A stretch of DNA of 64,000 bases from Hexactinellida sp. DTS-2022 (Eukaryota > Porifera > Hexactinellida). A program made the position numbers and the translations under genes. Numbering within the stretch: position 1 is the first letter of the stretch; each line of letters starts with the position of its first letter. The stretch is taken from contig JAPNXP010000001.1 in the NCBI GenBank assembly GCA_028753945.1, positions 6,562,501-6,626,500 of the forward strand, written 5' to 3'. Positions 12,344 through 59,880 of this stretch are shown one piece after another. Under the pieces are notes generated by a model. It was not told where the DNA came from, searched no databases, and saw only the letters and a list, made by a program, of their open reading frames with translations.

Positions 12344-14017
12344 TTATTGATAAATTTTCAATACACCATCAATTTTGCTCCTGCAAATTGGGCAATTAGC
12401 TTTGATTTCAAATAAATGATTTGCACATGTATGACAGAAACCTGCATGAACGCATTGATCGTGTAAAAGGGCGAAGTTTTCTGATCTGCATAGTAAACAA
12501 ACATGACAATGATCATTATTCAGTTCATCATTTGTCGAATCTGATGAGATGTCAGAAATATCTGTATTAGCTAATGTTAACGTATCTGAATGAAAATTCA
12601 AACTTCCAATTGTCATTGCAATTAAATCAAGATATTCTAATGAAGTACATTTCTGATTGAGAAGACTTTCTCTTAATTCTTTTCTGCGCTTTGTTTTTGA
12701 CTTTGTGATGGAGTTAGCTGCTCTAGTAGTCTCTTCACCTTTCGATAGCCTTTCCAGTTCAATATCATAATCGGAGATTACTTTATTCAGACTTTCCATA
12801 AATCTCCATATATTGGGGTGTGGGCCTTTAACATAAGACTTTAATGTTTTGTGGTAAGATTCCGCCCCATTATTAGTTGCTGTCTCATAATAAAAGACTG
12901 ATAAGCTACTATTTCCGCTTAGCCATGTCTTGTTAAAATATGCTCTTAACGCTTTTACCAAGGTTTTTTCAGATTCAACTAAGTCGTTTATTGGTATTTC
13001 CAATGACAGATATACAGGGTAGATCTCTTCTTCAGGTAGCCAAGGCAGTGCCATTAGTTGTCTGATCCATTTTCTAAAGTTTTGATTTTTCTTGTACAAT
13101 ATTATCAGTCCCAGTCTTTGAACTTTCTCATATAGCGCTTTGGTATAGTGGAACCAACATCCAATAAGCGTTATCGAGGGAAACAATTCTTTAAGAGCAT
13201 TTCTTGGAGCTGGTTCAAAATCCCCAATCGCAAATGTTGGAACAAAATTCGGGATTAATTCGTGAATTGAAAAAAGTACAGCTCTGTATAAATTTTCGGT
13301 TTTTCTAGTCATTAGAATATGTAATGCTGGAAGAGTGTGACCATTAAATTCAATAAAAATGGTAAAAAGTTGTAAAAATAATCTAGGAACAACTTTGAAT
13401 GTACCATCGAACTGAATGTGTGTGGAATCTGGAAGCTTGTTTATCATGCAATCTGATCCAAAGATAAATGCTACTTCATCCTCATCAGTAACTGTCTTCA
13501 AATGATGACCAGAATACCCCGATTCAAGTAATAATACTCCAAATTCTTGTGCAGATGATGGTAGTTTTGGTTGTATTTTCCTTCTTCTCTTAAACATAGA
13601 ACTTTCCAACTTCCTGAAGGTAACAGATGATGCACCATCAGAATCTCGGCAACATTCATTGAATACTTCTCTAAGGTCACTTGTAGAAGTTTCGGCCTTT
13701 CGCTTAATGTTGTTGCTTAGGATGATTCTATTTGCGTTATAAGACTCGATAGGGTGATTATGGGATTGTGTTAGTTCAAACAGATTTGTCAATTTGTCAA
13801 TTTTGCCACAGGATTGGCAGCCATACGTTCTAAACAATGTACATTTGACATAAGTTGAAATTTCCGATTCTCGAACTTTAATATATCGGAACCCCTGACA
13901 TTCGTAGTTCTTTGAGTTCAATTTTTTTCCTTCAACGATAACATAATCCATTAAAAAGAGCAAGTGAGTTACTGATGATAGAAGTTCTAAACTACTGAAG
14001 GCGTACCTAGCATCCAT
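12344..14017 (-). CDS. FLYWCH-MULE transposase with C-terminal RING finger
   Basis: 557 aa, ATG at 14,017. A FLYWCH zinc finger at ~30-93 (YECQGFRYIK, C59-C70, then HNH88) would bind DNA. The MULE RNase H-fold core follows: D204 in FDGTF, D266 in IGDFE, the C287-x2-H290 motif, and E386 in TNNGAESYH are the expected catalytic and metal-binding residues. Residues ~507-545 form a C3HC4 RING (CLLC, QCVHAGFCHTC, CPICR) of the MDM2/IAP type, which is normally an E3 ubiquitin ligase module. FLYWCH-MULE is known in invertebrates; the RING tail is not usual. No in-frame stop or frameshift, and the gene lies between its own inverted ends, so the element may be competent. Confidence 0.9.
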   Translation of the reverse strand: MDARYAFSSLELLSSVTHLLFLMDYVIVEGKKLNSKNYECQGFRYIKVRESEISTYVKCTLFRTYGCQSCGKIDKLTNLFELTQSHNHPIESYNANRIILSNNIKRKAETSTSDLREVFNECCRDSDGASSVTFRKLESSMFKRRRKIQPKLPSSAQEFGVLLLESGYSGHHLKTVTDEDEVAFIFGSDCMINKLPDSTHIQFDGTFKVVPRLFLQLFTIFIEFNGHTLPALHILMTRKTENLYRAVLFSIHELIPNFVPTFAIGDFEPAPRNALKELFPSITLIGCWFHYTKALYEKVQRLGLIILYKKNQNFRKWIRQLMALPWLPEEEIYPVYLSLEIPINDLVESEKTLVKALRAYFNKTWLSGNSSLSVFYYETATNNGAESYHKTLKSYVKGPHPNIWRFMESLNKVISDYDIELERLSKGEETTRAANSITKSKTKRRKELRESLLNQKCTSLEYLDLIAMTIGSLNFHSDTLTLANTDISDISSDSTNDELNNDHCHVCLLCRSENFALLHDQCVHAGFCHTCANHLFEIKANCPICRSKIDGVLKIYQ

Positions 14018-14224
14018 ATATACACACTTAATACTATTGGGTGTTTCTCACTGAAGACATAAAGTTGATAATACAAAACAAATTACAAGATGAATAACTA
14101 AATAAAGTTGTTCATAAAAAACAAATAGTGATGAGTGTAAACAGTGGTGTGTTGCTAGGGAGGAAAGTAAGAGTTCCCCCCCCCAAACATCCCTATTCCC
14201 TGGGTGTAAACACATTCCTCAGTA

Positions 14225-14766: not shown

Positions 14767-15899
14767 AAAACAAAATTGCAGCCTGTGCCGACGCATGTTC
14801 CTTTGGTGGCACTATATTTTGGTGGTGGTTTATTGGTAGTATACCTCCAAAGGAACATTCTGTCGGCACAGGCTGCAATTTTGGATTTTTTTCGCCATGT
14901 CATCATCACTATGAAGGTGGTAAATTATTTCAGAAAGGTGTTTCAGAAGACATCGCCCTTAGAGTAGTGGAAGTTTCCAATTAGCTCACTTCATTTTAGG
15001 ATATTCAAGTTTTAGTGGAATATAATAGGTGATGACTCAGCATTTGTATGTGTGTGTGTGTGTTGGGTGATCACCCAAAACCAACCAACCCATTTGAATT
15101 ATATAATTCACAAAATTGTAATACACATTTTTTTTACGATGTCATCAACACCACAAGGTATCAAGACACATTTGTAGAGGTGTTACGTGGCATAAAGATC
15201 AATTGATAAATTGGAAGTTTGTCTCTATCTTGTATAATCTCTGAGATTAACGCCATTTAGCAAATTAGTATAAATAATTATTAATGTAATTCATAATTTA
15301 ACACCATTATTATGTACAACAAAATAAATTAAATAAATTATTTGCATTAATAATTAATTTAAATTGAATTTCACTATCATATTTGAATTCAGCGCACTCG
15401 GAAACCCCAATAATTTAATTGGAACGGTCTCTATAAGATAAACACAGAGCAAATAAATTTGATATAATTATGTCAGTGTATCCATTGTGCAACAATATTC
15501 TCGCAGAAGTAAATATAATCACATAATCTGTCGTTGTTATGGAATGTAAAATCTTAGTTTTCGATTAGAAAATAGAAGCCTACTCGATTTAACAAGTTGA
15601 ATCAATATAATAATCACTAGTGACACAATAGAATTAGATTTAACACTTTCAATTGACCGGAAGTGTTAGTAAACAAACGAAACATGCAACTCAATTGTGG
15701 CACAAACAAAACCCAATTTTAATATTCGTGCACTGTAAAAAGGTGTAGAATTGAATTCTCTATCGAATGCATATAGATTGAATATTCGGGCACTATTTAT
15801 TGTCCCTGTTATAACATTAAACAGGTGTACAAATGTGTCCAAAATAATGTGATAAAAAATCATGACCCCAAGTGCACATCTCTAACCCATGAGACACCT
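14767..15899 (+). repeat. Repeat R, copy 3
   Basis: Hairpin 14,767-14,892, then the 'B-type' body (cattattatgtacaacaaaataaatt). It stops abruptly after gagacacct, where the Transib-like element begins with CACAGTG. The missing tail resumes at ~20,102. Confidence 0.75.
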
Positions 15900-16510
15900 C
15901 ACAGTGGGGCAAAATGGCAATAATGGCGGAATAGGTGTTTGGGTTAAAGTTAGACCTATCAAATGTATTATTTACATATGGGTTTTCTACTATGAGAAAT
16001 CGTTTGGTATGTTCAGATTTTTTCTAAGGATACCCTATAAATTGTTGTCACGTCATCATGATTTACAAAAAAACAAAAAAATATTAATTTACTACAATAA
16101 TGCACCTAATGTTAATTACTATTTCGATTTATAATTTACATTGTTTATAATGATGCTAGTACATGTAAAGCCATTTTGATAATTTGATTCACCTCAATTT
16201 ATTGAATACCTTATTCTAATATAAACGAGTTTACAAGGAAATCTTCTTCACTTAATTTACAAATATTTCTTTTTTTTTTTCTGTAAACATCCTATAACTT
16301 GCCAGAACTGGATCACTTTGACATAAAATACGCATGAATACATCTTTAATGTTATCTTCAAACGTGAATTTTCTGGATAGCTTCTCTCGGTACCTTCTAA
16401 CGTATTTATTTAAAGATTCAATGCATTCCTCTGACAATATTTTCATTCCACATCCATTATTATAATCTGCTACAAGTTCCACAGAATGAGCCAATAACTT
16501 GTGTAGAGAT

Positions 16511-17092
16511 CAGTGCTCGACAAATTAGGTGGTTTGGTGGCGCTACTAGCGCTAGCACGGTACGTGGTATACCGATGGTATAATTAGGTATAACCAATTA
16601 TACCAAATTAGTGTCTAGTTTCGGTATATCACCTAATGCTTAATATTTATTGAATTTACCTAGATTACACCTAGATTATACCAATATTAAACCACAATAT
16701 ACCACGTATATTTCGAGTATTTAGGGTAGTATAGATGTAGGTACACGTAGTATATTAAATGTGTAATGGAAGTTTAGAATATTATACCGAACAGTTCCTA
16801 ATTTGGTATAATTAAACCGTGGGCGCTAGCCACCAAAAATCTTATTTAAGCCACTAAATTTTGTCTTTGGTGGCTTAACTAATCTACCATAAATTGTGAA
16901 TTATTTGACTTTGTGTAGATTATATTTTTCGTTGCATCAATTGTTATTAACATTAGTGTTGTTTTACGGCATCAGAACTTTGTTAAGTTATCTGTCGTTT
17001 GTTAAACTGTACTTTGTTTATTATTAAGCACCAGAGAAAGTGAGGTGGTGGCTTAATTAGCCACCATCAAAATTTCATTTTGTCGAGCACTG
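16511..17092. mobile_element. hAT-type MITE, 582 bp, inside the RAG1-like gene
   Basis: Ends CAGTGCTCGACAAA and TTTTGTCGAGCACTG, with GTAGAGAT perfectly duplicated (16,503-16,510; 17,093-17,100). Removing it with one duplication restores the host reading frame through the His-x4-His motif. The interior has ggtataa-rich repeats and two opposed aagccacc motifs. Confidence 0.9.
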
Positions 17093-17233
17093 GTAGAGAT
17101 GGCGTGATGCTGGCCCATGGGAATGTTGTTAACACGAATAGATAAGTTTCTTTACAAAAACTGTTGAGTTTAAATGTGTCAAGTTTCGAACTGCTGTTAT
17201 AGAGTCTTAAGATAACAGAGAGATTTCTTCTGA

Positions 17234-17652
17234 CAAGGCTGGATTCGGTTAACCGGCTAACCGGTTAACCGTTGCTGACATCGGTTAACGGTTAGAGATT
17301 TTATTAACCAGTTAGCCGGTGTGTTGAATATCAGCAGAGTTATTGGGAAATTATTGTATAAAGCATTAAATTTTTTGAATTTTATCAGAATATGTTAGTC
17401 CTAAATCCATTTCTCATCACCACTTAAAAATTTTATTTGACAACATTGATTTAAATTTGCCTAAAGCACGAAATGTATCAGTAAATATACTTATGCGGTT
17501 ATACTTTATACAGCTGAGTCTTATTCTGTAGTATAATCACATTTTTATAAAGGATTTATTGTATTATGTAGGATGGCCGGTTAACCGGTTAACCGTGGCG
17601 AGAAATAGAATTGTAACCGTAGCCTTAGATCGGTTAACCAACCCCACCCTTG
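17234..17652. mobile_element. hAT-type MITE, 419 bp, inside the RAG1-like gene
   Basis: It starts CAAGGCTGGATTCGGTTAAC and ends GGTTAACCAACCCCACCCTTG less its last base, with a CTTCTGA duplication (17,227-17,233; 17,653-17,659), 7 of the expected 8 bp. The interior is rich in ggttaaccgg. Removing it keeps the transposase frame open. Confidence 0.8.
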
Positions 17653-19331
17653 CTTCTGATTAGAGATATTGACAACTTATCTTCGTGCAATAATGTAGAA
17701 GTTGTCCACTTTATGAATTCCTTTTCATTTAGAAAACAGGATCGTGCTATGTTCCCAGTTGTACTTGTCCCTCCATCACAGGAAGGAAGATCGATATGAA
17801 ATCCTGTTTTCTCCAACAAAAAAGTGCGCATTTTATCCATAGATCTTTTTATTTTTGGAGATCTAGGAGACCATTTCTTGAGATTAGCATCTAAGTGGTA
17901 AATTAAAAGCATAAACCACCTAAACCCACATAGATAACTGTGTAGTGGGGATACAGGTAGGATATTGATATCCGAGGCTGGAGGATGAGTTAAACCGAAT
18001 CTCATCTCAGAAGGTAGCTTGAGAAATTCTTCCGGATTGACATCACTGAAAATGTCAATTGCATCTTTTACATGCCTATTGATGGGGAAGCCATAATTAA
18101 CAAGCTCGATATCTTTAAGTTGATCGCGATTAGCTGTGCATAGTTGACATACAGCACCTCCAGCCCCACTTAGTATAGCGGACATTTTGCCATCGAACAG
18201 AGTCCTCTTTACAATCACATTTACATGCCCTTCACGTAGTTCTAAGCCATTAGATTCTAGTAAACAAGTTTTAGGATTAATTAGTGTTTTCATGAGATAA
18301 TTGACACTTTCGTAATTTTCTTTTTGAGATACTAATGCAACTGGCCTCGTCACAAAAGGTGAGTTAGGGCATGGATTTGACCAAATTTCCTTACCAGATT
18401 TATCGATTAGGGACAAAGCTTTGAAGGCAAATAATATGAGAGATTTCGTTGAGAGGGTTGGGTTTGTAGGAATCTGGTTGTAAAGTCGATGACTCCCTGA
18501 GCAATCTAAACCATCAGCTATCGTGAGAGTTAAAGGGTAATGAGATTCTATGCAAGAAGGAATCAACTGTACTATTCTTTCTGTTGTTTTATGTACTAAA
18601 GTAGAGTATGGAATATTCACTCCTATGGAATTTCCTTGTTCATTATTTAAGACAGAGATTTCCTGTGCTGAACAAATTTCATTTCGGTATGCTACAATCT
18701 TCTTGTAACCAGGAAAATGAATATCTTCTGACTTGCAGATACGACGGAGGTCAATGTATTTCCTTTTCCCAATTTCCAAGAGATCTAACATAAAGGAGGC
18801 TTTTTCTAATGGGAACTTGTTAACTTGATTGGGTGCAGTTCTCGCAGCAACATCGCTACATAATTTGGCTGTATCTCTGTCATAATTATCATTGCTGATA
18901 CACTGGAGTGCTAAAGCTGCAATTGTTCTGGAGTCAGTATTTTCTCTCTCAGCGAGAAAAGTGATATGATCGAGTAGTACCATAAGCCGTGTTCTTATTG
19001 TTTGCAGAGTAACTGCTGAAATATATTTCCTGTTTGTATTAGAGAGAGGTTCAACAAATGAAATTGTATCAGTCAGTTTATCTGTTCCATCAGATCTCAT
19101 CTTTTCTGAAGGTTTACATGCCCCATGTTCATAGAAAGGCAAAATTTCCCAATTATTCAGATCATTATGTCGGACAAACTCTCTACGGATAGTGGTTAAT
19201 TCCTGAAATTTCCTGTTCATCATTGAAAATTGAGATTCTGGTAAATCAAATTGGACCAGCATCTCGCTGGTTGCTTTACGACAGTTATTTTCCGCCTTTT
19301 GGAGAATATTTCTTGCTTCTTGATTGTTCAT

Positions 19332-20081
19332 TTTAGATTAAATGTTTAGAATTTTGAAAATTTATTGGATATTATATTATTTATGACCAATATTACTACA
19401 TTGTTTTAAGTCACTAATATCCCTATGAAACAAATTAATTGCATTCCATTTCTCGTGTTTGATATCTAAGAAAGTTCAAATAAATATTACATCTTACAAT
19501 ATTGATTGATAATAAATTTACATTTTTTTACTACATGCATTATGGGACTATTTTAGCGTAAACTGTATAACTGGAGACCAAAAAAGATATTTTGGTCATC
19601 TTTGGTCACCCTGAAATTAATACTAAATTTAAATCAATATTTGTCTTCACATATCACTAACTTCTTTGATCAGCAGTGATCAGTATAAGTTTCGACAGTT
19701 TAAAGTGTAGTGTCACCGTTTGTAATGTATTTGTGAAACAAGCTTTACGATTTCTGATGAGGAGTTTATAATATTCAACGGAATAATTCAAAATGTTTTT
19801 ATAAATGCAACAAGTAGATAGTAGATCCCTCACAAACAACATTCAAATACGTGTGATTCGTAGTTTTCATATGGCGATGACGTAAATGTCACTAATATAA
19901 TAAAAATATGTTGAATATTTTAGATAAAATAGAAACCATACTTTCAACCACAAACTATTTCATAACCACTGGTGTTAGAGTAATTAAATTTCGGATTCCT
20001 AGGTTTTCAATAGTTCTGATTTCGAATATCGCAATCATTTAGCAATTAAAAATGGTAAAATTTTTGTTTATTCAGCCATGT
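19332..20081. other. 5' non-coding part of the Transib-like element
   Basis: AT-rich sequence upstream of the transposase start, with no frame of note. It should contain the promoter and the right transposon end, but I see no inverse of the left end here. Confidence 0.5.
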
Positions 20082-20121
20082 TGAAATTTTCAGGACAGGT
20101 GCACCTGTCCTGAAAATTTCA
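20082..20121. repeat. 40-bp perfect palindrome at the right junction of the Transib-like element
   Basis: tgaaattttcaggacaggtg is followed directly by its exact reverse complement. The right half is ordinary repeat R sequence (cacctgtcctgaaaatttca, as at 8,180). The left half is its inverted copy and replaces the expected transposon end. Confidence 0.85.
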
Positions 20122-26090: not shown

Positions 26091-29000
26091 TTAACTATTA
26101 TTTTCGAATTTAACAGAAATAATAGGTTCATAATGATTCCCAATATTTCGTATATATATCCCATTTGGGGTTGGCGCCTTCATTAACTCTTCAAAAGTTG
26201 ATCCATTCCCTGAAAATCCAATCCAACGTGTTCCCAACGGACCCAAGAATACCCAGATATCTATATTAAATAACAAAGCAGTTGCAAAGAGTTCAAGATC
26301 AGTAGCCCATTTCCCACTCTTCCTCATTCCTGTTTTGTTGACCCAGTCTTGTACATTTCGATAATTACCCTGCGTATAAACATATTTTGTGCGTAAATAT
26401 TTATTGCAACTCATACTTAGGTCACCTAGCATATTATCGATTATTAGCTCCCTAAACTCTGCATGGAAATCTTGACTACCAGTGATGAGATAAGAAATTG
26501 TCGAGAAATAGCAATTTCCATCGCCAATTATATATTGAGTCAAGTTTGGCGAATAACTAAATAAACTTTCTTCATTATCTACAATATCATTATAGGAGTA
26601 CGGTAACTCCTCGCGAAAGTGAAACTTCCACTTTTTACATGTAGAAATCTGCCAGTCTGTATGTGGCGGACGAAAGCTTGGTAGTACATATCGTATTAGC
26701 CCCGTCTCAACTATTTCCTCATCTGTAATTATAGAGGCCACTCGCATTACCTTTGATGCAGTTTGCGTACGTAAACTAGATAACTTTTCGCATTTTCGTG
26801 GGACAAATTTACGCTTAATTTTACATATTTTATTTTTCTTCTCAACTTTTTTCTTCTTAAATGTTTGAAATTCATATGATTTAGGTTGTAAATAACCGCA
26901 ATACACTTTCTTTTTTCGTGACCATTCTTCAACACTTTCCTCTTCCAAACTATTTCTTACTCTTTTATGACCTTTAAATACCTTATTCGCTCGCGGGTGA
27001 AAGGCAAATTGAAACGCTGATAACCTACTTACTATACCAGGATACAACAATTGTATCAAATCTCCAGGCCTCAAATTAGTTTTGGATTCCAAAATATTTA
27101 ACTTAACAATACGCATCCAATTCTCCACAATAGCGTTGCTAAAGATGCTAGTCTTGTTCTTATCCGCTACACTAATAGGTCCTAAGATTATTCCACTCCA
27201 TAAAGGTAATATAGGTAGGTAGAATGTTAACAAGTATTCTATAAGCTCCGGATTATAACAAGGATTTGGATCTGCATTTTTTCCTGGATTATTGTTGATC
27301 CAAGATTTGCAATTTTTTGCAATATTTACAAAATGTTTGCCGAAAGGGGATTTTTCTCTGTATGTTTTACTATCCTTGTTATCAATAGCAATATTATTAT
27401 CGTCCATATGTTCTTCAACCAAATATTCATTAGTCTCTGAGGAGTTTACGGAATCATTACTAATGAATGTTTCTAGCAAATGAGTATGTGTCTTTACTAT
27501 TGCACTTAAAGAACTACTCATAAATACAATGCATAAAGATTGGAATAAATTATTGATACTTGTCATTTCAACAGCGCGTACAATAAATCCGATACTATGT
27601 AAAAACAGTTTTCTCACTTCTTTTTGTAGTTTAAATTTTTTATTTATATGAAATCCTATGCTGTGCATTAAATGAGCCGAACATAAGTGAAGAATTACTT
27701 TAAAGTCCGTCTCATTAACTGCAGAATTTACATCTACCATATTCCAACACTTATGGAGATAGGTATCTATATCACACTTGAGAAAAATACTACAAGAACT
27801 GTGAATCAAAACCCAGCTGAAATCTATTTCAACTTGTGAAATGTTTAGATCGCCCAGTATTTTCTTTGCATCAAGGGACCATTTGTGCAAAAAATAACTT
27901 ATTTCAGCACTGGTGTGTCCTGAACTAATCATTTCTGCTAGTGGAATTGGACTAGTGGAGTAAGTAGGATGTCTTACAGTTAGAGCGTAATAGAATACTT
28001 TCTTTAGTGAGGGTTCTATTTTCCTAACAATTGATCCTGTGGCATCCAAGTGAAGAACAATTCTTGTATCTTTAAACAATTTCAATATTTTGATTTGATC
28101 TTCAGTGTACATATGTACAATAAAAGGATTATGACTTAGTGACTGTATGTAACCTCTAACATGAAGGCCAATAACACTATTTCTATAATACTGTTGTAAG
28201 CTAATTAACTCAGTCCAGTTATCATTAGAATACCTCTGTAAACTAGACAAATCAAATTTAGCTTTTCGCAGGACTGCAGAACTTCTAACCTTATTTAGGT
28301 TACCATAATTAAGCGCTAAGTTTGTGTTCTCTACAGAATCAAATTGATCATAGAAATAAGCATTTACAGATGTATCTGCTACCCCTCTAGCTACTTCTAA
28401 CCTATGCGAATGTGATAAATTTCGTGAGTGCACAGTTGTATTATCGAAATGCTGTTCAGATAAGGTTCCATAAGCTACATACTCCACAATAATATTTTCA
28501 TCAATTTTACACTCCAACGGCTCTTTCTTTATTACAAATGTAAATTCAAAACAATCTTTAAACTTACACACTGCTTTAGCTCTAAAAAAACAGCTATTTT
28601 GTTTTCTACTACTAAGTTTATTAACCTTTTTGTATTGAAAAGAAAGAACACATACAAAATTTCCCTCGATTTTTGAACTAAATAAATTGGTCCAATCTTT
28701 AGAAAATACTACAGAGTCTCCATGAATTAGTGTAATACTTTTCCATTCCATTCCACTTAGCAAAAATTCACCACAGATTTCCTCACTAAACATGGATTGT
28801 TCAACTATGACTTCATTACCCAGAGTACTGTCGTCATCTTCTGATGGCACTAGCAATTTGGACTCAGGGATATTAGAGGTAATAACAATTTCAGGTTGCG
28901 GGTCATCGGTAGATGACAATACCGGGACTTGTTGATTTGAAGAAGAAGAAGAGGTATGATGCAATTTTAGGCACAGAGATTCATGAAATGAGCTTAAAGT

Positions 29001-29828
29001 ATCTGAACTTTCTCGACAGGCTAGAATAAAGCTAGTGAATAAATCTAGTTGTTGCACTGTGATAGCTATATATGAATTCCCGAATAGCTCTAATATCCTA
29101 CAACTAATGTTTTCAACTAAAATCCACGCTTCCACTAAGTTACAATTTCGCCTGATTAGTCGAATCCATTGCATTGACTCCATTAGACAGCAACTAAACT
29201 TTTTCGACTGGTCGTGGAGTTTGTCATCCACTAGCATGAACTCACCACTAACAAGCGGACACTCTAAGCTGAAAAATTTCATTGCATCTAACCATAGACT
29301 ATTATTACAGTTTATGAATGACCAAAAATGGCTATCAGTCCTCCCTGTTTGGGGAGGAGGAGAAGCTATCTTAGACATGAGACCGTAAAGCTGGCAGTCA
29401 TCGCAACCAGATGCCAATAAACCTAGCAAACTGTTATTCGTTACGTCTCGCTGTAAACTAGGAAAACTGAAATCGATTTCATCCAAACTCCTCTTACTGA
29501 GTTCTATAGTGTCAGGATATGAGCTAGCAGATACTAACTGAGTACTGATATGCTCTACTGCCAATCGGGATACATCATTGGTGATAGACTTACGCGTACT
29601 GATCATTTGCTTTACGAGATGCTGAAAGTTTCCTCTATTCAATCTCCATTTGGAGCTGAGAGAATCGCGCTTAGTAGCCTTGTTTTTTCCAAAAAGAATA
29701 ATTGATAATTTTCCCCAGACAGATTTTGGCTTATGTTTGTCTCCTTTGTTCAAAGCATCTCTTACGCTATCGAAGCTTTCATAGCCGAGTTTCTGGAGAG
29801 CTTCCACGAATTGCTCTATTGAAGTCAT
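26091..29828 (-). CDS. DDE-like transposase with C-terminal OTU cysteine protease
   Basis: 1245 aa, single open frame, ATG at 29,828. The middle holds an RNase H-like transposase core: D595 (LHLDATGS), then AEMISSGHT, D669 (VEIDFSWVL), HLCSAHLMHSIG, and E902 (NAIVENWMRIVK) are good candidates for the catalytic triad. A basic stretch (KKKKVEKKNK) precedes an OTU domain at ~1090-1245, with D1103 and C1106 in GDGNCYF and H1232 in GNHYEPI as the expected protease residues. OTU enzymes usually cleave ubiquitin chains. Related DDE-OTU proteins appear, from memory, as uncharacterised genes in cnidarians and arthropods. The gene sits alone inside matching inverted ends, so it is probably that element's transposase. 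Confidence 0.85.
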   Translation of the reverse strand: MTSIEQFVEALQKLGYESFDSVRDALNKGDKHKPKSVWGKLSIILFGKNKATKRDSLSSKWRLNRGNFQHLVKQMISTRKSITNDVSRLAVEHISTQLVSASSYPDTIELSKRSLDEIDFSFPSLQRDVTNNSLLGLLASGCDDCQLYGLMSKIASPPPQTGRTDSHFWSFINCNNSLWLDAMKFFSLECPLVSGEFMLVDDKLHDQSKKFSCCLMESMQWIRLIRRNCNLVEAWILVENISCRILELFGNSYIAITVQQLDLFTSFILACRESSDTLSSFHESLCLKLHHTSSSSSNQQVPVLSSTDDPQPEIVITSNIPESKLLVPSEDDDSTLGNEVIVEQSMFSEEICGEFLLSGMEWKSITLIHGDSVVFSKDWTNLFSSKIEGNFVCVLSFQYKKVNKLSSRKQNSCFFRAKAVCKFKDCFEFTFVIKKEPLECKIDENIIVEYVAYGTLSEQHFDNTTVHSRNLSHSHRLEVARGVADTSVNAYFYDQFDSVENTNLALNYGNLNKVRSSAVLRKAKFDLSSLQRYSNDNWTELISLQQYYRNSVIGLHVRGYIQSLSHNPFIVHMYTEDQIKILKLFKDTRIVLHLDATGSIVRKIEPSLKKVFYYALTVRHPTYSTSPIPLAEMISSGHTSAEISYFLHKWSLDAKKILGDLNISQVEIDFSWVLIHSSCSIFLKCDIDTYLHKCWNMVDVNSAVNETDFKVILHLCSAHLMHSIGFHINKKFKLQKEVRKLFLHSIGFIVRAVEMTSINNLFQSLCIVFMSSSLSAIVKTHTHLLETFISNDSVNSSETNEYLVEEHMDDNNIAIDNKDSKTYREKSPFGKHFVNIAKNCKSWINNNPGKNADPNPCYNPELIEYLLTFYLPILPLWSGIILGPISVADKNKTSIFSNAIVENWMRIVKLNILESKTNLRPGDLIQLLYPGIVSRLSAFQFAFHPRANKVFKGHKRVRNSLEEESVEEWSRKKKVYCGYLQPKSYEFQTFKKKKVEKKNKICKIKRKFVPRKCEKLSSLRTQTASKVMRVASIITDEEIVETGLIRYVLPSFRPPHTDWQISTCKKWKFHFREELPYSYNDIVDNEESLFSYSPNLTQYIIGDGNCYFSTISYLITGSQDFHAEFRELIIDNMLGDLSMSCNKYLRTKYVYTQGNYRNVQDWVNKTGMRKSGKWATDLELFATALLFNIDIWVFLGPLGTRWIGFSGNGSTFEELMKAPTPNGIYIRNIGNHYEPIISVKFENNS

Positions 29829-30022
29829 TACTAGATGAAATAATAATAATAATTTTAATTAATCAATACATATATATATACTACTACAGTAGAACCTCGT
29901 TAGTACGAACACGGTTAATTAAGTCATTACTAGATGAAATAATAATAATTATTATAATTAATCAATACATATATATATACTACTACAGTAGAACCTCGTT
30001 AGTACGAACACGGTTAATTAAT
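29824..30022. repeat. 99-bp tandem duplication including the OTU gene start codon
   Basis: 29,824-29,922 and 29,923-30,021 are near-identical (gtcattactagatgaaataa ... cagtagaacctcgttagtac). The first unit starts in the gene's first codons and contains the 5' part of a pogo-like end, so the pogo end and the start codon region both exist twice. Confidence 0.85.
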
Positions 30023-38749: not shown

Positions 38750-40597
38750 GTCCACCCATCTTGCCGAAAGCCATCTTGCCGAAAGGCCATCATGCCGAAA
38801 GCCACCATGCCGAAAGCCATCTTGCCGAAAGCCATACTGACGATATTATTTATAATCCCAATGGTGTCAATGGTGTTGATACGATAATAAATAGTTTTGA
38901 ATGGAGTGTAATGATGTAAACATCAGGATTATAGTGTAACTTGTAAACGACAAAATAGATACCTCTTATAAATACTAGTTTTTTCATTTAACAATTAAAG
39001 GGAAAATGGAATTTTCATCAACAATATTCAGTGGAAGAAAGTTACTCTATAAAAGATACATCTATATTAAAGATAAAGACTCAATTGATTCTACTTACTG
39101 GCGCTGTGAGAAACTAGATTTATGCAATGGACGTATAACAACACACAGAGTTAGCGGATGCATAAAAAAGCCACCTTCTACCCACACTCATTCTCCTGAT
39201 TCTGCCGCTATTGAAGCTGTCAAAACTATTGGAGACATAAAATTGCGATCTACTCTTACTGAGGAACTTACATCTTCTGTAATTCAGAATTCTACGAGAT
39301 ATATTTCGATTCCTGCAGCAGTCAAACTTCCCTCTAAAAACAGTTTGTCTAAAATCGTGCGGCGTAAGAGGAGAGCTCCAGATGATGATTTTTTCGAGTC
39401 GGTGCATACTACAAGAGGACAACAATTTTTGATCTCTAACAACCCAGAATTGGATTTGATTGTGCTCGGCACCCAGGAAAATATCCAAATGCTAACCAGA
39501 TACCCCAACTGGTTTTGTGATGGTACCTTCGATTCGGCGCCCGTGGGATATCAATTGTATACCATCCATGCTTTACTTAATGAAACCGTCACTATTCCAT
39601 TGGTATTTTGTATTTCCAAATCTAAAACTGAGGTAGTGTATAAGGAAATTTTCTCAACTCTTAAGGAGAACTTTCCAATGCTCAATCCAGCAACAATAAT
39701 GTTTGATTATGAAAGAGCTGCAATAAATGCATTTGCACAGGTTTTTCCTAATGCAGAGATTAAAGGCTGTTTCTTTCACTTTGGCCAAGCTATATGGAGA
39801 CATATTCAAACCTTGGGACTGCAACAACGGTATCAAAATGACGAAGAATTTGCTGTTATAATAAAGCAGTTTCAGGCTCTAGCCTTCGTACCAACAGTTG
39901 ATGTTATTCCTTGCTATGATGAATTTTTATCCTCACTCAGTGATGAACTAGTGAATGATTTAAGCGAATTCCTTGATTATTTCGAAAGAACCTGGATTGG
40001 TTTGGAGCATCATGGTAGACGCCGCCGCCCTTTATTCTCCATTGGACTGTGGAATGTAAGAGATAGGGTTGAGTGTGCACTGCCAAGAACCAACAATTCT
40101 GTTGAGGGTTGGCATAGAGCCTTTGATATCAGGATAAATATAACATATCCTTCAATTTCCAAACTCATCCGTAAAATTGTAGCGGAACAGAGTGGAAACG
40201 AGATAACGTTGGAAAAATTTCGAAGCGGTCACGAACTGGCCAAATCAAAGAAAAAAAATATTCAGCTCAACAAAAGAATAGAGAAACTTGTTAATGAATA
40301 TTTGTTTATTCCTCATCTCGAGTTTCTACGTGGCATATCGCACAATTTATCATACTAACTATTTTTTGTTATTTTCTATTTTGTACTTTATTTATTAAAG
40401 ATTCACTCATCTCTCTTTAGCTACTAAGTAATATGTATTTGGTTAATAATTACTTAATTAAGTTTTTCACAAACACAATATCAGTAAATTCGGCAAGATG
40501 GCTTTCGGCATGATGGCCTTTCGGCGAAGATGGCTTTCGGCAAGATGGCTTTCGGCAAGATGGCTTTCGGCAAGATGGTTTTCGGCAAGATGGGCTA
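38750..40597 (+). mobile_element. Intact MULE 2 with minisatellite inverted ends, 1.85 kb
   Basis: The ends are tandem copies of a 15-bp unit (cttgccgaaagccat) at 38,757-38,843, inverted at 40,490-40,597. GCACCGT is repeated at both junctions (38,743-38,749; 40,598-40,604), 7 of an expected 9 bp. The insertion lies in a palindrome unit whose halves resume on each side. One uninterrupted transposase gene lies inside. Confidence 0.85.
39006..40358 (+). CDS. FLYWCH-MULE transposase
   Basis: 450 aa, ATG at 39,006. The N-terminal FLYWCH finger (KRYIYIKD, YW32RC34, C40, H60-x-H62) should bind DNA. The MULE core has D172 (FCDGTFD), D234 (MFDYERA), C255-x2-H258 and E367 (RTNNSVEGWH), all positions expected for catalysis. 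It is shorter than MULE 1's protein because it has no RING tail. No frame damage. It is divergent from MULE 1, so they are separate families sharing the same architecture of minisatellite ends. The gene fills most of the element, with about 160 bp upstream after the terminal array. Confidence 0.9.
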   Translation: MEFSSTIFSGRKLLYKRYIYIKDKDSIDSTYWRCEKLDLCNGRITTHRVSGCIKKPPSTHTHSPDSAAIEAVKTIGDIKLRSTLTEELTSSVIQNSTRYISIPAAVKLPSKNSLSKIVRRKRRAPDDDFFESVHTTRGQQFLISNNPELDLIVLGTQENIQMLTRYPNWFCDGTFDSAPVGYQLYTIHALLNETVTIPLVFCISKSKTEVVYKEIFSTLKENFPMLNPATIMFDYERAAINAFAQVFPNAEIKGCFFHFGQAIWRHIQTLGLQQRYQNDEEFAVIIKQFQALAFVPTVDVIPCYDEFLSSLSDELVNDLSEFLDYFERTWIGLEHHGRRRRPLFSIGLWNVRDRVECALPRTNNSVEGWHRAFDIRINITYPSISKLIRKIVAEQSGNEITLEKFRSGHELAKSKKKNIQLNKRIEKLVNEYLFIPHLEFLRGISHNLSY

Positions 40598-49790: not shown

Positions 49791-50272
49791 AAAATGATTT
49801 GGAAATGTACTTATTGGAGGTAAGTATTAAATATTATAGTACGGAAAAAAATTATGAGTCCACCGGTCGCTTCGCGGCCGGTGTAAGTAGTTATCAACAA
49901 CCTAGTTGCATCTTTGTTTAAATAAATAAATTGCTAAAGTTTAAATTTCACCGTAAATTTTACGCGAGTAACAATGAATACATATTTCAAATTTGCAACT
50001 CTCATATAAATTATTTCTATAATAATATCTGTTGTTGATTATATAAAAGGAGCAAAAAATGCAGATTAAATTCTATTTCGCTGTATTATCTGGGCAAATA
50101 ACTAACCAACGGTTTTGGTAGTTTGCTTTGCAACATCAGAGTTTTAAGTTAATACCTTAATGTTCTTTAGAATTCACATCAGTCAACCTTGGATTAACAT
50201 AATTTTCAAGAGCCATCTTTCTCAGACCAAAATTCTACATATTTTCATGACCCTTATTCTAAGTTTCCACCA

Positions 50273-51058
50273 ATGACTAGTGATAACTATGAAGAAGAGA
50301 TTTCAATACCACCTCCAGAAGGTACATTAGTGTTTACAGAACATGCAAATCTTCATGTGAGGAATAGTTTGAATCCTTACTTAGGTTCCACTTCAGAATC
50401 ACATTTTCCAATTCAAGATAGTCCAAATCCCGTGAAGGATTGCATTGCTTGTGGTGGCGAAACGACCGCGGCACATAAGTGTCCTGGGTGTAATAAATTT
50501 ATTCATGCAATTTGTGGGAGGCTAGTTGGTGAAGAAGGCTATGGAAGCAATGTGTGGTGTGCTGCGTGCGACCTATCAACTAAAAATGAAATGAGCACTA
50601 CGTTGCGCTTAAATATTAGACGCTCACAGGAGAAATGTGTCACCAAAGAATGTTAAATGCCAGCGGAAAAAAGGTTCCAACCAGCTGAAATTGGGGATAA
50701 CATTATTATTCCAATTTCGAAGCCTGACAAACAATCAACAATTGGTCCTCGTAACATTTTTGGCTGTATTACCGGCGAAGTTGACGATATTTATATTATC
50801 GGTACCTTAGAAGGGGAAATATCAGTAGGTTACAGTCGAAACCAGTTTGAAATATCCACAGCTAACGTTCTAGCTCCATCAATGATACCTCCACAACTAA
50901 TAACTCAGACGGCTGTAATGCAAAGGAACTCGCTTGGAATAGGGCCAAATGCATGCAAATGTAAGAAATGTAACACAACGCGATGTCCTTGCAGAAAACA
51001 TTCTCGACACTGCACAACCAAATGTCATAATGGTAAATCTTGTTTAAATAAACAGTAA
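50273..51058 (+). pseudogene. Ginger transposase C-terminal part (zinc finger and Cys-rich tail)
   Basis: One frame of 261 codons with a single stop (TAA 50,654-50,656). The first half has CIACGGETTAAHKCPGCNKF, HAICG and GEEGYGS, a treble-clef-like finger also found in KRBA2/SCAND3-type proteins. The end is a Cys-rich CKCKKCNTTRCPC ... HNGKSC tail typical of these integrase-derived proteins. The lone stop suggests recent inactivation of this part, though the integrase core is more decayed. Confidence 0.75.
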
Positions 51059-55494: not shown

Positions 55495-58400
55495 CTAAAA
55501 CCAATCGAGATCTGTGTCGTAATGCACCACCAACACATAGTCATCGTATTTCTTAGATTTACGATTGCGCAACGGATATCTCCTTTGGGTCGGAACTTCT
55601 GCCTCCTGCTCATCCGGTTCTTGTTCCACTTGGTGTGGGTTTTCTATTTCTGTTGTGTCCACTAACAGCTCCTGCTCGATGGGCTCGAAACTTGCATCGT
55701 GGAGCTCTTCACCTCCTGTGAAATCCTTTCCCTCTGGACCTTCAGTACTCGCGGCTTGTTCTACTACCCTTGTAGTAATGGGAATCTGTCCGCCTTCCTT
55801 GAACAGTTTGCAACGACTGAGATGAATCCATTTTAGTTTGCTTCCCTTCTTTATCTTGCCGTTAGCCCCCCTAACATCCGAAACTACGTAAGGCCCGCCA
55901 TATTTGGGGTCAAGAGAATCTCTGCACCTTGCGTTTGCTTCTAGCACCAGGTCGCCCTTCGCGAACGGAGGGAGTTGAGCCCCTTGGTTTCTGCTGTAAT
56001 TCCTGTCCATCCTGCTTTGCCTGTCGTTTTCAGCTGCTAAACTCTTTAATTCCGATGAGAGTTGTTTCAGTCTCTCTGCGTGCTGACTGTAGCTGAGTTC
56101 GCTCGTCCACTCCTTCCTAGTCAACATTGCATCTATGGGGGACAATGGCTGTCTGCCCGTCATTAGGAGTTGTGCAGAGAATTTCGTAGAGGAATTCTCA
56201 GCGTTGTTACAATAAAAGGCCACTTCAGGCAAAATGTCAGGCCATGATTCCTTAGGTAGTTGGCGGTCTAGCGTTAAGCATCTAGCCACTTGCTTGACTA
56301 AGCCAATGCTTCTCTCGACTAGTCCGTCCGCTTGTGGGTGATAGGGTGATGAGTGTCGTTTCTCAATGCCCAACCTATCGCACATCTTCCTAACTTCAAC
56401 GCCATCTATGTTGTGTGCTTGATTTGATAACAAGCCTCTGGGCACACCATGGCCACGAAAGATCCATCCTCGTTCGAATTCGCGTATCAGGGATGCAGCG
56501 GTCTGGTCCTGAAGAGGAGCCAGTTCGATGTACCGTGTAAAAACATCTACAATACATAAGAAGTATCGAAACTTGTCATCTGCCCACGGTAGGGTTCCTA
56601 CATCCATGGCTACCAAATCCCCCGGACCTAGTCCCTCGACTCTGAAATCCTGGATCGGTACTTTTGCCCGGTTTGATCCCTTGGCTCTCTGACATGTAAA
56701 ACAGCTTTGACAAACCTTTCGCGCATCCCGTGACATACCTAGCCAAAAATAACTTCTTCTGAGATTCTGCAAGGTCCTCCTCTGCCCGAAATGCCCCGCA
56801 GCGTGTACTCTTTTCACCACTTCATCTTGGGCTTCGCTTGGTACAACTACGCGATCCTGAAATAGTAGTAGGCCATTCGTGACGTTTAAATGCTCTGCGA
56901 CGTCACGGAGTTGTCCCGAGCTAACTCTTCCCTTCGTTTTTAATTGTTTCAGGGCCTCACATGTTACTGGATCCTGTTTCTGCTGTCTTTGCATTTGAAA
57001 CGCATCCCACCTGCTCTCAACGCGAACCTTAGTCTTTACTGCAAAAACTTTATCTTCGAAGACACTTTCATCTTGAACTTTCGCGTCGATTGCTACGTTC
57101 GGGTTTCTGCTTAAATAGTCTGGTAAGTTGTTTTCTTTACCGGGCCGGTGGGTGATGGTATACGAATATTCCTCCAATTCTAGTATCCATCTCGCAAATG
57201 TCCTACGAGGGTCCTTCTGGTCGCGAAGCCATTTTAGCGGACAATGGTCTGTTATTAGATCCACCTCACCTCTGGCTCCCAAGTAGGTTTGCCATTTCCG
57301 ACATGCTGCGACTAGAGCCCAAGCTTCTAGCTGCCCCGCGCTATAATTTCTCTGAGCGCCGCTAAGGGAGGACGAAAAGTAGTCTATGGGGTGCAACTGC
57401 CCGGTTTCCTCATTTCTCTGAGACAACACTGCTGCTACAGCTGTTGCGCTGGCATCTGCCTCGATTACGAATTTATTTCTCCAGTCCGGAAATGCCAGCA
57501 ATATTGGTTCCTGTACGAGCTTGTGTCGCAGGGAGTCAAAGGCGTTCTCGCATTCACTATTCCAAACCCAGCTAGCCCCTTTTCGTGTCAATTCGTATAG
57601 GGGCGCGGCTAAATGGGCCAATTCCGGGATGTACGAGCGATAAAAGTTCAGGCTTCCCAAAAAACGCTGCAACTCTGTCACTCCTTGAGGCCTAGGAAAC
57701 TTGGACAATTTCTGGGCGGCAGAACTCATGGGTGTTCGACCATGCCTGGTTACGACATGACCTAGGAATTCTACCTTTTTACGGGCAAACTGACATTTCA
57801 GTAACTTTACATGAAGCCTAGCTTGTTGCAAGCGGGTAAACACTGTCCGTAAGTCCTCCATATGTTGTTCAAAGGAATGGGAATATATGATAAGGTCATC
57901 AATATATGAATCGGTGTGCTTGAGCCCACGCAACGTATTGTCCATAAGCCTTTGGAAAGTAGCCTGCGCGTTCACAAGTCCAAACGGCATGACCAACATC
58001 TCAAAAAGGCCTCTCGGCGTGTTGAAAGCCGTCTTTTCTACATCTCTTTCTCGCATAGGCACGCACCAATACGCTGCCGAGATATCGATTACTGAAAAAT
58101 ACTGGAAACCGTGTAGTCTGTCCAAAATTGCCTGTACTTGAGGTATTCCGTATGCATCCTTCTTTGTTACACTATTAAGCCCGCGGTAGTCGATGGCGAA
58201 TCGTTTCTTACCGTCCTTTTTGGTAACCAATACTACGTTACTCGCCCATGGTGAGTTGGAGGGTCTACATAATTCCTGACTTAATAATTCTTCCAATTGC
58301 GAGTTAATCTCATCTTCCCATTGGGGAGGCAATCTTCTGGGCCTCGCTTTGCTTGGGGCTGCTTCCCTTGTGTCAATCGCGTGTTCGCATAAAGTGGTTC

Positions 58401-59856
58401 GGCCCGGCATGTCATTGAATAACGGTTCGAATTCTTTCAGCAAAGTTAGGAACTTGATCTGTTGTTCACAATTTAAGTCGGTCTTGGTAACTTCGATTCG
58501 TTGATCCTCGCCACACCTGTTTATCTGTGCTATTGAACGTGCTCTTGCCAATGGATCCCCTCCCGTTGCCTGTTCCTGGATCCCTATCCTGATTTTACCC
58601 AGTGTAATAACCCCTTCATCCCAATCAAAGGTTACGCGCCCAAATGACTTTAGAAATTGTCGACCCAATAACAAAGCCTGTTCTTCGCCCTCTAATACGT
58701 GTACGCGCGTCCAGCGGGCCTCTTCACCGCTCACGCTAATCGGAATGTCTACACTTCCAACGACTGTAACGGGTGCTCCGCCAACCCCGTAAACTTGCCC
58801 TGTCTTGGACATTAAGCGATCGGTCAGCCCTAACTCCCGCATAGTTTGTACGTCCATAACATTTACCTTCGCCCCGGTATCTAATAGGGCGCGTATGGTA
58901 CTATCTCCGACTCTCACCGAAATGGATGCTGCTTTCTCGTCTGCCTGGTTGCTAACTCCCAAATTCTTTACATAATCTTTTCTTGTGTAATTCCTTCCTC
59001 TTCTCCCGCTGCTACCTCGCCATTCAGCCGTACACTCTTGTACATCATGGCCCTTTCCATGACAATCGTTGCATATCCTATCTGGACATCTTTGGTAGCC
59101 ATGCCCCCTTCTGCCGCATGTAAAACAGGTTATGTGGCTGTATCCACGTGACGCACCTCGGTAGATCCGCTCACCCCTCCTTTCAGATCCATATTGTCGG
59201 ATCTTCCACACATGAGGAAAGGATGGATCTGCCTCCGACTCGTTCAACTGCTGGTCTTCGCTCGCGTCTTCGCTAACCATTTTGCAGTGACCGACAGCTT
59301 TCTCATCAGGCGCTTCTCGTGCTCCGTAATCTGAAGGCACATCCGCTTGGCGCAGATTCTGTTGCACGAGACTTATAAACTCCCGCATTTGAGTATCAGA
59401 CACTGTGCTTTCGTCTCGCTCGCGTAACCACCTCTTTAAGGTAGAACACACCTTGTTTGGGAGTTGAGTTACTAGGGTTGTGCAAACCTGTCGATTGAGA
59501 AACCCTCCTCGTTTTGCCTCCTTCCATAATCGGGTAAAGAACACTTCGATACGTGTTCCTCTTGCCCAGACCATGCTACGGAATCTTGACGTAGCTTCAA
59601 ACTCGTCAATTGGGGCGTCTAAAGCGTTGCTGAGAACTTTGAATGCTGCCTCTACTGACTCTTCTTTTATAGCTAATAGCGTTGTATCCCTCTCAAACTC
59701 GTCCCTGCATACGTACGACGGTAAGATTTGAATGACTGCCTTTTCGCCAGCGTGGGCTGCGAGCGAGCTCGTGGCGGCTACGAACAGTGGTTGCCACTCT
59801 TCGATCCGTTCTCCCGGTCTCAGCGGTGGGATTGAAATATTCATGGGTGCGGCCAT
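55495..59856 (-). CDS. Gag-Pol polyprotein of the young Gypsy element
   Basis: 1453 aa, single frame, ATG at 59,856 only 24 bp inside the 5' LTR. Order: gag (1-~225), two CCHC knuckles (~242-275), aspartic protease (LLDTGAKVNV, D326), reverse transcriptase (~520-700, SYIDDLIIYS), RNase H (IEADASATAV; DHCPLKWL), H2C2 integrase finger (HAAGHFGQ...CFTCQRAKG), integrase core, and a C-terminal basic YPLRNRKSKK tail. The integrase-first order after RNase H is Ty3/Gypsy. Oddity: the second integrase catalytic position reads LLSNQAHN, with Asn1145 (AAT) where Asp is expected. No env. Gag and Pol are fused in one frame with no shift. Confidence 0.93.
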   Translation of the reverse strand: MAAPMNISIPPLRPGERIEEWQPLFVAATSSLAAHAGEKAVIQILPSYVCRDEFERDTTLLAIKEESVEAAFKVLSNALDAPIDEFEATSRFRSMVWARGTRIEVFFTRLWKEAKRGGFLNRQVCTTLVTQLPNKVCSTLKRWLRERDESTVSDTQMREFISLVQQNLRQADVPSDYGAREAPDEKAVGHCKMVSEDASEDQQLNESEADPSFPHVWKIRQYGSERRGERIYRGASRGYSHITCFTCGRRGHGYQRCPDRICNDCHGKGHDVQECTAEWRGSSGRRGRNYTRKDYVKNLGVSNQADEKAASISVRVGDSTIRALLDTGAKVNVMDVQTMRELGLTDRLMSKTGQVYGVGGAPVTVVGSVDIPISVSGEEARWTRVHVLEGEEQALLLGRQFLKSFGRVTFDWDEGVITLGKIRIGIQEQATGGDPLARARSIAQINRCGEDQRIEVTKTDLNCEQQIKFLTLLKEFEPLFNDMPGRTTLCEHAIDTREAAPSKARPRRLPPQWEDEINSQLEELLSQELCRPSNSPWASNVVLVTKKDGKKRFAIDYRGLNSVTKKDAYGIPQVQAILDRLHGFQYFSVIDISAAYWCVPMRERDVEKTAFNTPRGLFEMLVMPFGLVNAQATFQRLMDNTLRGLKHTDSYIDDLIIYSHSFEQHMEDLRTVFTRLQQARLHVKLLKCQFARKKVEFLGHVVTRHGRTPMSSAAQKLSKFPRPQGVTELQRFLGSLNFYRSYIPELAHLAAPLYELTRKGASWVWNSECENAFDSLRHKLVQEPILLAFPDWRNKFVIEADASATAVAAVLSQRNEETGQLHPIDYFSSSLSGAQRNYSAGQLEAWALVAACRKWQTYLGARGEVDLITDHCPLKWLRDQKDPRRTFARWILELEEYSYTITHRPGKENNLPDYLSRNPNVAIDAKVQDESVFEDKVFAVKTKVRVESRWDAFQMQRQQKQDPVTCEALKQLKTKGRVSSGQLRDVAEHLNVTNGLLLFQDRVVVPSEAQDEVVKRVHAAGHFGQRRTLQNLRRSYFWLGMSRDARKVCQSCFTCQRAKGSNRAKVPIQDFRVEGLGPGDLVAMDVGTLPWADDKFRYFLCIVDVFTRYIELAPLQDQTAASLIREFERGWIFRGHGVPRGLLSNQAHNIDGVEVRKMCDRLGIEKRHSSPYHPQADGLVERSIGLVKQVARCLTLDRQLPKESWPDILPEVAFYCNNAENSSTKFSAQLLMTGRQPLSPIDAMLTRKEWTSELSYSQHAERLKQLSSELKSLAAENDRQSRMDRNYSRNQGAQLPPFAKGDLVLEANARCRDSLDPKYGGPYVVSDVRGANGKIKKGSKLKWIHLSRCKLFKEGGQIPITTRVVEQAASTEGPEGKDFTGGEELHDASFEPIEQELLVDTTEIENPHQVEQEPDEQEAEVPTQRRYPLRNRKSKKYDDYVLVVHYDTDLDWF

Positions 59857-59880
59857 CCAGACACTGACTACTTGTATTTA

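Follow-up and report, generated by a model that had tools for sequence, protein, structure and literature searches.

A 64,000-nucleotide stretch of the Hexactinellida sp. DTS-2022 assembly (Porifera), referred to here as the window, carries on its minus strand a gene resembling the RAG1 recombinase and the Transib transposases. The original prediction, made from the sequence letters, was a RAG1/Transib-like recombinase kept in frame around two hAT insertions. To which of the two branches does the gene belong, is it still functional, and what has happened at the ends of the element that carries it? The last question bears on immunity, as V(D)J recombination couples a hairpin-leaving transposase with hairpin-opening repair that gives P nucleotides. 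Palindromes of that kind at Transib ends, most of them started by two bases and extended serially, would make this pairing readable, and testable, in a transposon outside immunity.

A dead Transib copy divided by two inserts

The locus is best explained as a Transib DNA transposon copy, recent but dead, that two later MITE insertions have divided (Table 1). The signature motifs (ADGLDCSGSH, CQLC, GNIAR, HKLLAH, and SEECIESLNK) lie on the minus strand at the places claimed for them, in a protein that aligns with its relatives. The span first proposed, 16252..19331, contains the gene but missed the borders of the element, 15900 to ~20101, with AGGTG on both sides. Close copies align in DNA as far as 15900 on one side and ~20083 on the other; the 5' terminus has been rewritten, and the element sequence proper runs from 20082. 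Other copies start with CACAGTGGGGCAACATGG and end with the inverted repeat of CACAGTGGGGCAAAATGG. The window copy keeps the CACAGTG heptamer at its 3' end and has lost it at its 5' end; most ends of the relatives carry it (with one or two changes in L066, L070, and L142). Target site duplications (TSDs) of Transibs are 5 bp, as given in an excerpt of PMC7204232; besides the AGGTG pair in the window, a duplication was found in 49 of 54 paired copies.

Both predicted inserts are present. The second is flanked by an exact duplication of 8 bp, ATCTCTAC, and its 14-bp terminal repeats open with CAGTG, the start expected of hAT repeats; it thereby has the 8-bp duplication and short terminal inverted repeats (TIRs) of a hAT MITE. 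The exact duplication of the first is 7 bp rather than 8 bp, and its hAT label is tentative. Empty sites are available for both: copies L010 to L013 lack the two inserts, and L009 lacks the first.

The frame has not been kept open, since it now terminates within the first insert after 565 aa. In addition, an A-rich run near the C terminus, in the last segment (16252 to 16509, an 85-aa frame), is one base shorter than in all four close copies compared, and because of this the end of that segment is out of register; the predicted length of ~687 aa therefore does not describe the family protein. The middle segment is similar by eye to the matching stretch of L015. As it stands, the window copy is dead, its frame split by the inserts and its end shifted by the length change. 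There is next to no probability that it is instead a host gene, domesticated and preserved by selection despite the two inserts: much coding sequence is intact outside the inserts, but against the idea stand the stop inside the first insert, the later length change, and the high identity to other copies that are also broken, which fits a young, decaying transposon.

Table 1. Positions of the Transib copy, its parts and its scar in the window, and of two host repair proteins
Feature	Position	Strand	Remarks
Transib element, window copy	15900..20101	-	3' terminus at 15900; borders and TSD from comparison with close copies
TSD AGGTG, 5 bp, 5' side	20102..20106	-	
TSD AGGTG, 5 bp, 3' side	15895..15899	-	Flush with CACTGTG
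3' terminal inverted repeat	15900..15918	+	Read outside-in, CACAGTGGGGCAAAATGGC; RSS heptamer CACAGTG at start
Transposase, N-terminal and central part	17634..19331	-	565 aa and stop inside first insert; HzTransib E = 7.2e-10
First MITE-like insert, 419 bp	17234..17652	-	Ends CAAGGGTGG/CCAGCCTTG; 7-bp duplication TCAGAAG
Transposase, middle coding segment	17093..17233	-	Open in its own frame (ORF 17067-17264)
Second MITE, hAT-like, 582 bp	16511..17092	-	TIR CAGTGCTCGACAAA; 8-bp duplication ATCTCTAC
Transposase, C-terminal segment	16252..16510	-	HKLLAH histidines and SEECIE glutamate box; end out of register; HzTransib E = 2e-6
19-nt reverse complement of flank, P-nucleotide-like arm	20083..20101	-	Occupies the place of CACAGTGGGG in other copies
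Perfect no-loop palindrome	20082..20121		Arms of 20; axis 20102/20101 at the TSD/TIR boundary
Artemis-like and SNM1A-like host proteins	L151 107-1342; L150 359-1600	- (both)	

Relatives in the genome and other features of the window

A translated search of the genome (112 Mb, 18 contigs; 77 of 840 first-look candidates scored) gave at least 84 matches, and the window copy is one member of this large Transib expansion. Rarity had been put forward as a reason for interest in the gene, which these matches contradict, as do descriptions of Transibs as widespread (PMC9435367; an excerpt of PMC7204232). The closest copies have 94 to 98% DNA identity over long aligned stretches and are likewise broken, and remoter families mostly have ~40 to 53% identity over most of their length. 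Among these other families are several intact proteins of 708 to 751 aa, the longest of which (L027) has an aberrant tail. One relative (L018, 2023-4251) carries an extra five-cysteine cluster, LCETCICEKKTVCLKC, in its N-terminal part that is absent from the other aligned sequences.

The window also holds two MULE transposase frames, one of 567 aa with a C3HC4 RING finger at its end (12344-14047, minus strand) and one with an N-terminal FLYWCH zinc finger (38979-40358, plus strand). A single open frame of 1,255 aa (26091-29858, minus strand) has an OTU-like cysteine protease domain near its C terminus. A SCAND3-like zinc finger frame (50198-51058, plus strand) is followed directly by a frame that is rich in cysteines and has no Pfam match, and a long open frame at 55495-59877 (minus strand) is presumably, by its motifs, a Ty3-type retroelement polyprotein.

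Transib rather than RAG1

The two window pieces were searched separately with the inserts left in place. Neither the 565-aa nor the 85-aa frame reached the Pfam RAG1 cut-off, which six of seven relatives scanned reached or passed over part of their length. Among PDB sequences, HzTransib (from Helicoverpa zea; 6pqn and 6pqx) was the best match to both pieces (Table 1), beginning after the N-terminal region; the 85-aa piece also matched unrelated designed helical-repeat proteins (5e-5 to 1e-3). A profile of eight relatives matched all three comparison groups and scored highest against HzTransib (153 bits, compared with 70 for amphioxus RAG1L and ~53 for RAG1). By sequence, the gene is a Transib transposase rather than RAG1, in a comparison in which HzTransib was the only Transib. 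Membership in the RAG1/Transib superfamily, the first part of the prediction, is upheld by the HzTransib matches and by the fold, and the choice between RAG1 and Transib is answered in favor of Transib.

The structure was modeled for relative L025, not the window copy, from 16 sequences (pLDDT, 79.6); an earlier, poor model from eight sequences (pLDDT, 58) was left out of the fold search. The top match by E value was 6pqx, the HzTransib hairpin-forming complex (E = 1.1e-22; TM score, 0.81 by target and 0.56 by query). RAG1 followed with E values from 5.2e-21 and TM scores of 0.63 to 0.73 by target and up to 0.58 by query, and amphioxus RAG1L had a TM score of 0.70. Lower values, 0.53 to 0.68 by target, were obtained for the remaining HzTransib entries. 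The predicted fold confirms the RAG1/Transib superfamily but does not decide the branch.

Residues D273/D276, D380, C395/C398, the H-x4-H pair, and the SEE box are nearly or fully invariant in the alignment; we take the catalytic assignment among D273/D276, D380, and the SEE residues from RAG1. The alignment of the eight-relative profile extends into the N-terminal part of the RAG1 core, a part that we take to be the nonamer-binding domain. A nonamer-binding-like domain occurs in both Transib subgroups (Tao et al. 2022, PMC9435367). By manual count, the stretch from the ZnC2 cysteines to the next conserved histidine is 65 residues long in the window protein, compared with 60 in amphioxus RAG1L and 30 in HzTransib. 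Helices are predicted in the segment after ZnC2 (alpha11-alpha12 region), which was judged by length rather than by residue-by-residue alignment. Retention of this segment, as far as length can tell, and the alignment of the N-terminal region with the RAG1 core are shared with the Subgroup I Transibs of Tao et al. (PMC9435367), as is a zinc-knuckle tail in L019, L020, L021, L025, and L028. In these five, the tail reads C-x2-C-x3-GH-x5-C, one residue longer than the C-x2-C-x3-GH-x4-C of the Subgroup I CTT1 tail, and the window family has no knuckle. The shorter form also defines the invertebrate RAG1L tail in an excerpt of PMC7204232. Taken by sequence, these features suggest Subgroup I membership for some of the Transib families.

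It is extremely unlikely that the gene is instead the RAG1-like (RAG1L) gene of a RAGL transposon, near vertebrate RAG1. Such an identity would agree with the partial Pfam RAG1 matches of six of seven relatives, with the reach of the family profile into the N-terminal RAG1 core, and with a fold that fits RAG1 about as well as HzTransib. The catalytic and zinc motifs, the CACAGTG heptamer, the RSS-like termini, and the 5-bp duplications are likewise traits that the element shares with RAG1, amphioxus RAG1L, or RAGL transposons. However, the profile score of HzTransib is more than twice that of amphioxus RAG1L and far above that of RAG1. The 708- to 751-aa relatives begin ~85 to 125 residues ahead of the RAG1-core-aligning region, and the long N-terminal non-core (zinc-finger) region of RAG1 and RAG1L is absent from them. 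A search for a RAG2 partner (PF03089) gave 0 matches, with its controls silent too. The fold search does not settle the branch, and the profile scores are the ground for rejecting a RAG1 or RAG1L identity.

Palindromic additions at the 5' ends

The window copy has lost the first 10 bases of its 5' terminus, and the flank's reverse complement stands in their place. The palindrome formed in this way (Table 1) has no counterpart in the 64-kb window, in which no other zero-loop palindrome with arms of at least 12 was found. A covalently sealed flank, if opened off-centre, would leave just such a zero-loop palindrome.

Additions at the same place are common among the relatives. Among 54 paired copies, 26 were flush with their duplications at both ends, 20 had an insert on the 5' side only, 3 had inserts on both sides, and 5 had no duplication found; extra bases thus lie between the TSD and the 5' terminus in 23 of the 54. 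Duplications were found in 49 of the 54 true pairs versus 309 of 2,862 mispaired flanks, and a few of the 49, most likely C11:2698510, may be due to chance. Flush pairs made up 8 of 8 in family A, 8 of 10 in other autonomous families, 2 of 5 in the window family, 6 of 11 in family C, and 2 of 20 in family B; in the last, 15 pairs had a 5' insert and 3 had no duplication found. Examples from family B, given as TSD followed by run, are CCACT + (AGCT)5, TGAAG + (CTAG)3, AAGAC + (GTAC)2, TATCG + (CG)6, and CGGTA followed by a TA run, and inserts often extend as runs of AGCT, CTAG, GTAC, CATG, CG, or TA.

Most of these additions match, in reverse complement, what stands next to them. Of the 19 inserts that are 2 nt or longer, 16 open with the reverse complement of the final two TSD bases (binomial P = 4e-17 at a chance of 1/16), the opening that P nucleotides have. 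Reverse-complement copying of standing sequence suffices to build 13 of the 16 inserts that are 6 nt or longer; the same holds for 0.3% of random sequences of 6 nt and for 0 of 20,000 when the length is 12 nt or more. Composition-keeping shuffles parse in 2 to 10% of cases for the three 6-nt inserts and in 0 to 2% for longer ones; parsing is less telling for inserts of C and G only, and shuffles of those of 6 nt parse in 6 to 10%. The longest possible first step, in the 19 inserts with a palindromic start, is 2 nt in 11, 1 nt in 3, 3 nt in 4, and 19 nt in the window copy. In family B, 13 of 23 5' ends have a run of at least two palindromic dinucleotide links directly against the TIR, compared with 0 of 23 at 30 nt outward and 0 of 18 at the 3' ends. 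Such runs occur at 1 of 8 5' ends in family A; in family C, the counts are 1 of 9 on the 5' side and 0 of 9 on the 3' side. The window background is 489 of 63,880 positions (0.77%).

The inserts are seeded by the local duplication, and the bases were therefore added after insertion; the duplication is displaced, and the inserted bases are therefore not part of the target. It is very unlikely that the runs are pre-existing microsatellites preferred as transposon targets, common as (CG)n and (TA)n are among simple repeats: the duplication that was found precedes the run on the 5' side, it lies directly at the 3' TIR in 14 of 15 family-B copies with a 5' insert, the 3' flanks hold no runs, and most runs begin with the reverse complement of their own duplication. 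This origin was rejected because of the displacement on the 5' side, with a 3' side nearly always flush.

Sampling of the paired ends

Several ends were dropped before the 54 pairs were counted. One end was not found for L009, L013, L014, and L027, and C1:7327320 and C10:3097182 had a 3' end only, with no intact 5' partner paired. Unpartnered 5' ends (L032, L065-L067, L069, L075, L078, and L127) and 3' ends (L048-L058, L079, L080, L082, L088, L090, and L091) were dropped as well. Also left out were C11:12826130 and C1:2619739 (L129/L089), the latter with one mismatch in its duplication (CGGTA/CGGCA); L019 was counted under C4:1684905. Ends were picked by a TIR and duplication score, which favors flush pairs, in families O except L017 and L023 and in L010, L011, L020, and L021. 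The flanks of C3:3337470 and C3:3316031 are identical, and the two probably represent a single event that entered the count twice. The 3' sides of L012 and L023 can alternatively be read as carrying short palindromic additions.

Flank hairpins as the proposed origin

The explanation that we consider best, and probable, is a dead Transib copy with serial P-nucleotide additions from flank hairpins that were cut again and opened off-centre. The DDE transposase of the family would recognise termini starting with CACAGTG and cut exactly at the terminus, leaving a covalently closed hairpin on the flanking DNA. Such cutting would have recurred after insertion at the boundary between TSD and terminus, at the 5' ends of the window copy and of many relatives. 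The flank hairpin would then be opened off-centre, usually ~2 nt from its tip. Filling in of the opened end would yield P nucleotides, and its ligation back to the transposon end that it came from would give an open-and-shut joint. An intact terminus could be cut again, and P nucleotides would accumulate as self-complementary runs between TSD and TIR; growth could be serial because the terminus is mostly unharmed and cutting can recur. The hairpin opener would probably be an Artemis-like nuclease of the host. The sequences themselves show the Transib kinship, the termini, the duplications and their displacement, the inserts, and the palindromic seeding by the local duplication; from these patterns we infer the hairpin intermediate, the repeated cycles, and the role of Artemis.

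Several observations are consistent with this scheme. RAG cuts by way of flank hairpins, according to excerpts of PMC7204232 and PMC8355894, and the PDB includes an HzTransib complex that is hairpin forming by its title. Artemis opens hairpins 1 to 3 nt from the tip, mostly at 2, as stated in an excerpt of PMC3528771, and by analogy an opening mostly 2 nt from the tip is Artemis-like. The host genome encodes a protein closer to Artemis (9.9e-44) than to Apollo (1.8e-23) and, in addition, an SNM1A-like protein. As in V(D)J coding joints and open-and-shut joints, the additions are seeded by the flank and are mostly 2 nt; unlike in those joints, they would pile up serially at a transposon end, in a germline. 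Searches of titles on Transib hairpins, footprints, or palindromes and on P nucleotides with transposons returned no title on such palindromic tracts. To our knowledge, serial accumulation of P nucleotides at a germline transposon end has not been described.

Other observations speak against it. The runs are concentrated in one non-autonomous family, B, while family A and most pairs of the other autonomous families are flush, and palindromic runs at 5' junctions are rare in families A and C. The 3' side is almost never affected, and the model therefore has to assume that one end is cut without the other. Of the 16 long inserts, three parse incompletely, and the duplication of one of these is probably due to chance; a palindromic start is lacking in 4 of all 23 inserts. 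A review (excerpt of PMC13041557) places the Artemis cut at the apex or 2 to 4 nt from it.

The main rival to serial cutting is slippage after one event, with a single short P insert per end that was later lengthened by replication slippage or templated end joining. We regard it as unlikely, although replication slippage could lengthen a short P insert: tandem tetramers are prone to slippage, and several runs are multiples of 4 nt (8, 12, and 20). Slippage requires more than one unit to start, however, and the motif switches midway in C4:1784911, C13:2369712, C6:3062806, and L094. The run in C9:823463, moreover, is 6 nt, or three half-units.

Significance

We lean toward serial cutting: Transib ends would have been cut many times after insertion, with RAG-type hairpins opened in an Artemis-like manner and rejoined, leaving a countable palindromic record of cleavage. 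The gene itself is one more Transib, and the terminal scars matter more. If the proposal is right, the tracts would record, copy by copy, the number of times that an end was cut, and RAG-style cutting, Artemis-style opening, and P nucleotides would be part of ordinary germline transposon repair, outside antigen-receptor systems.
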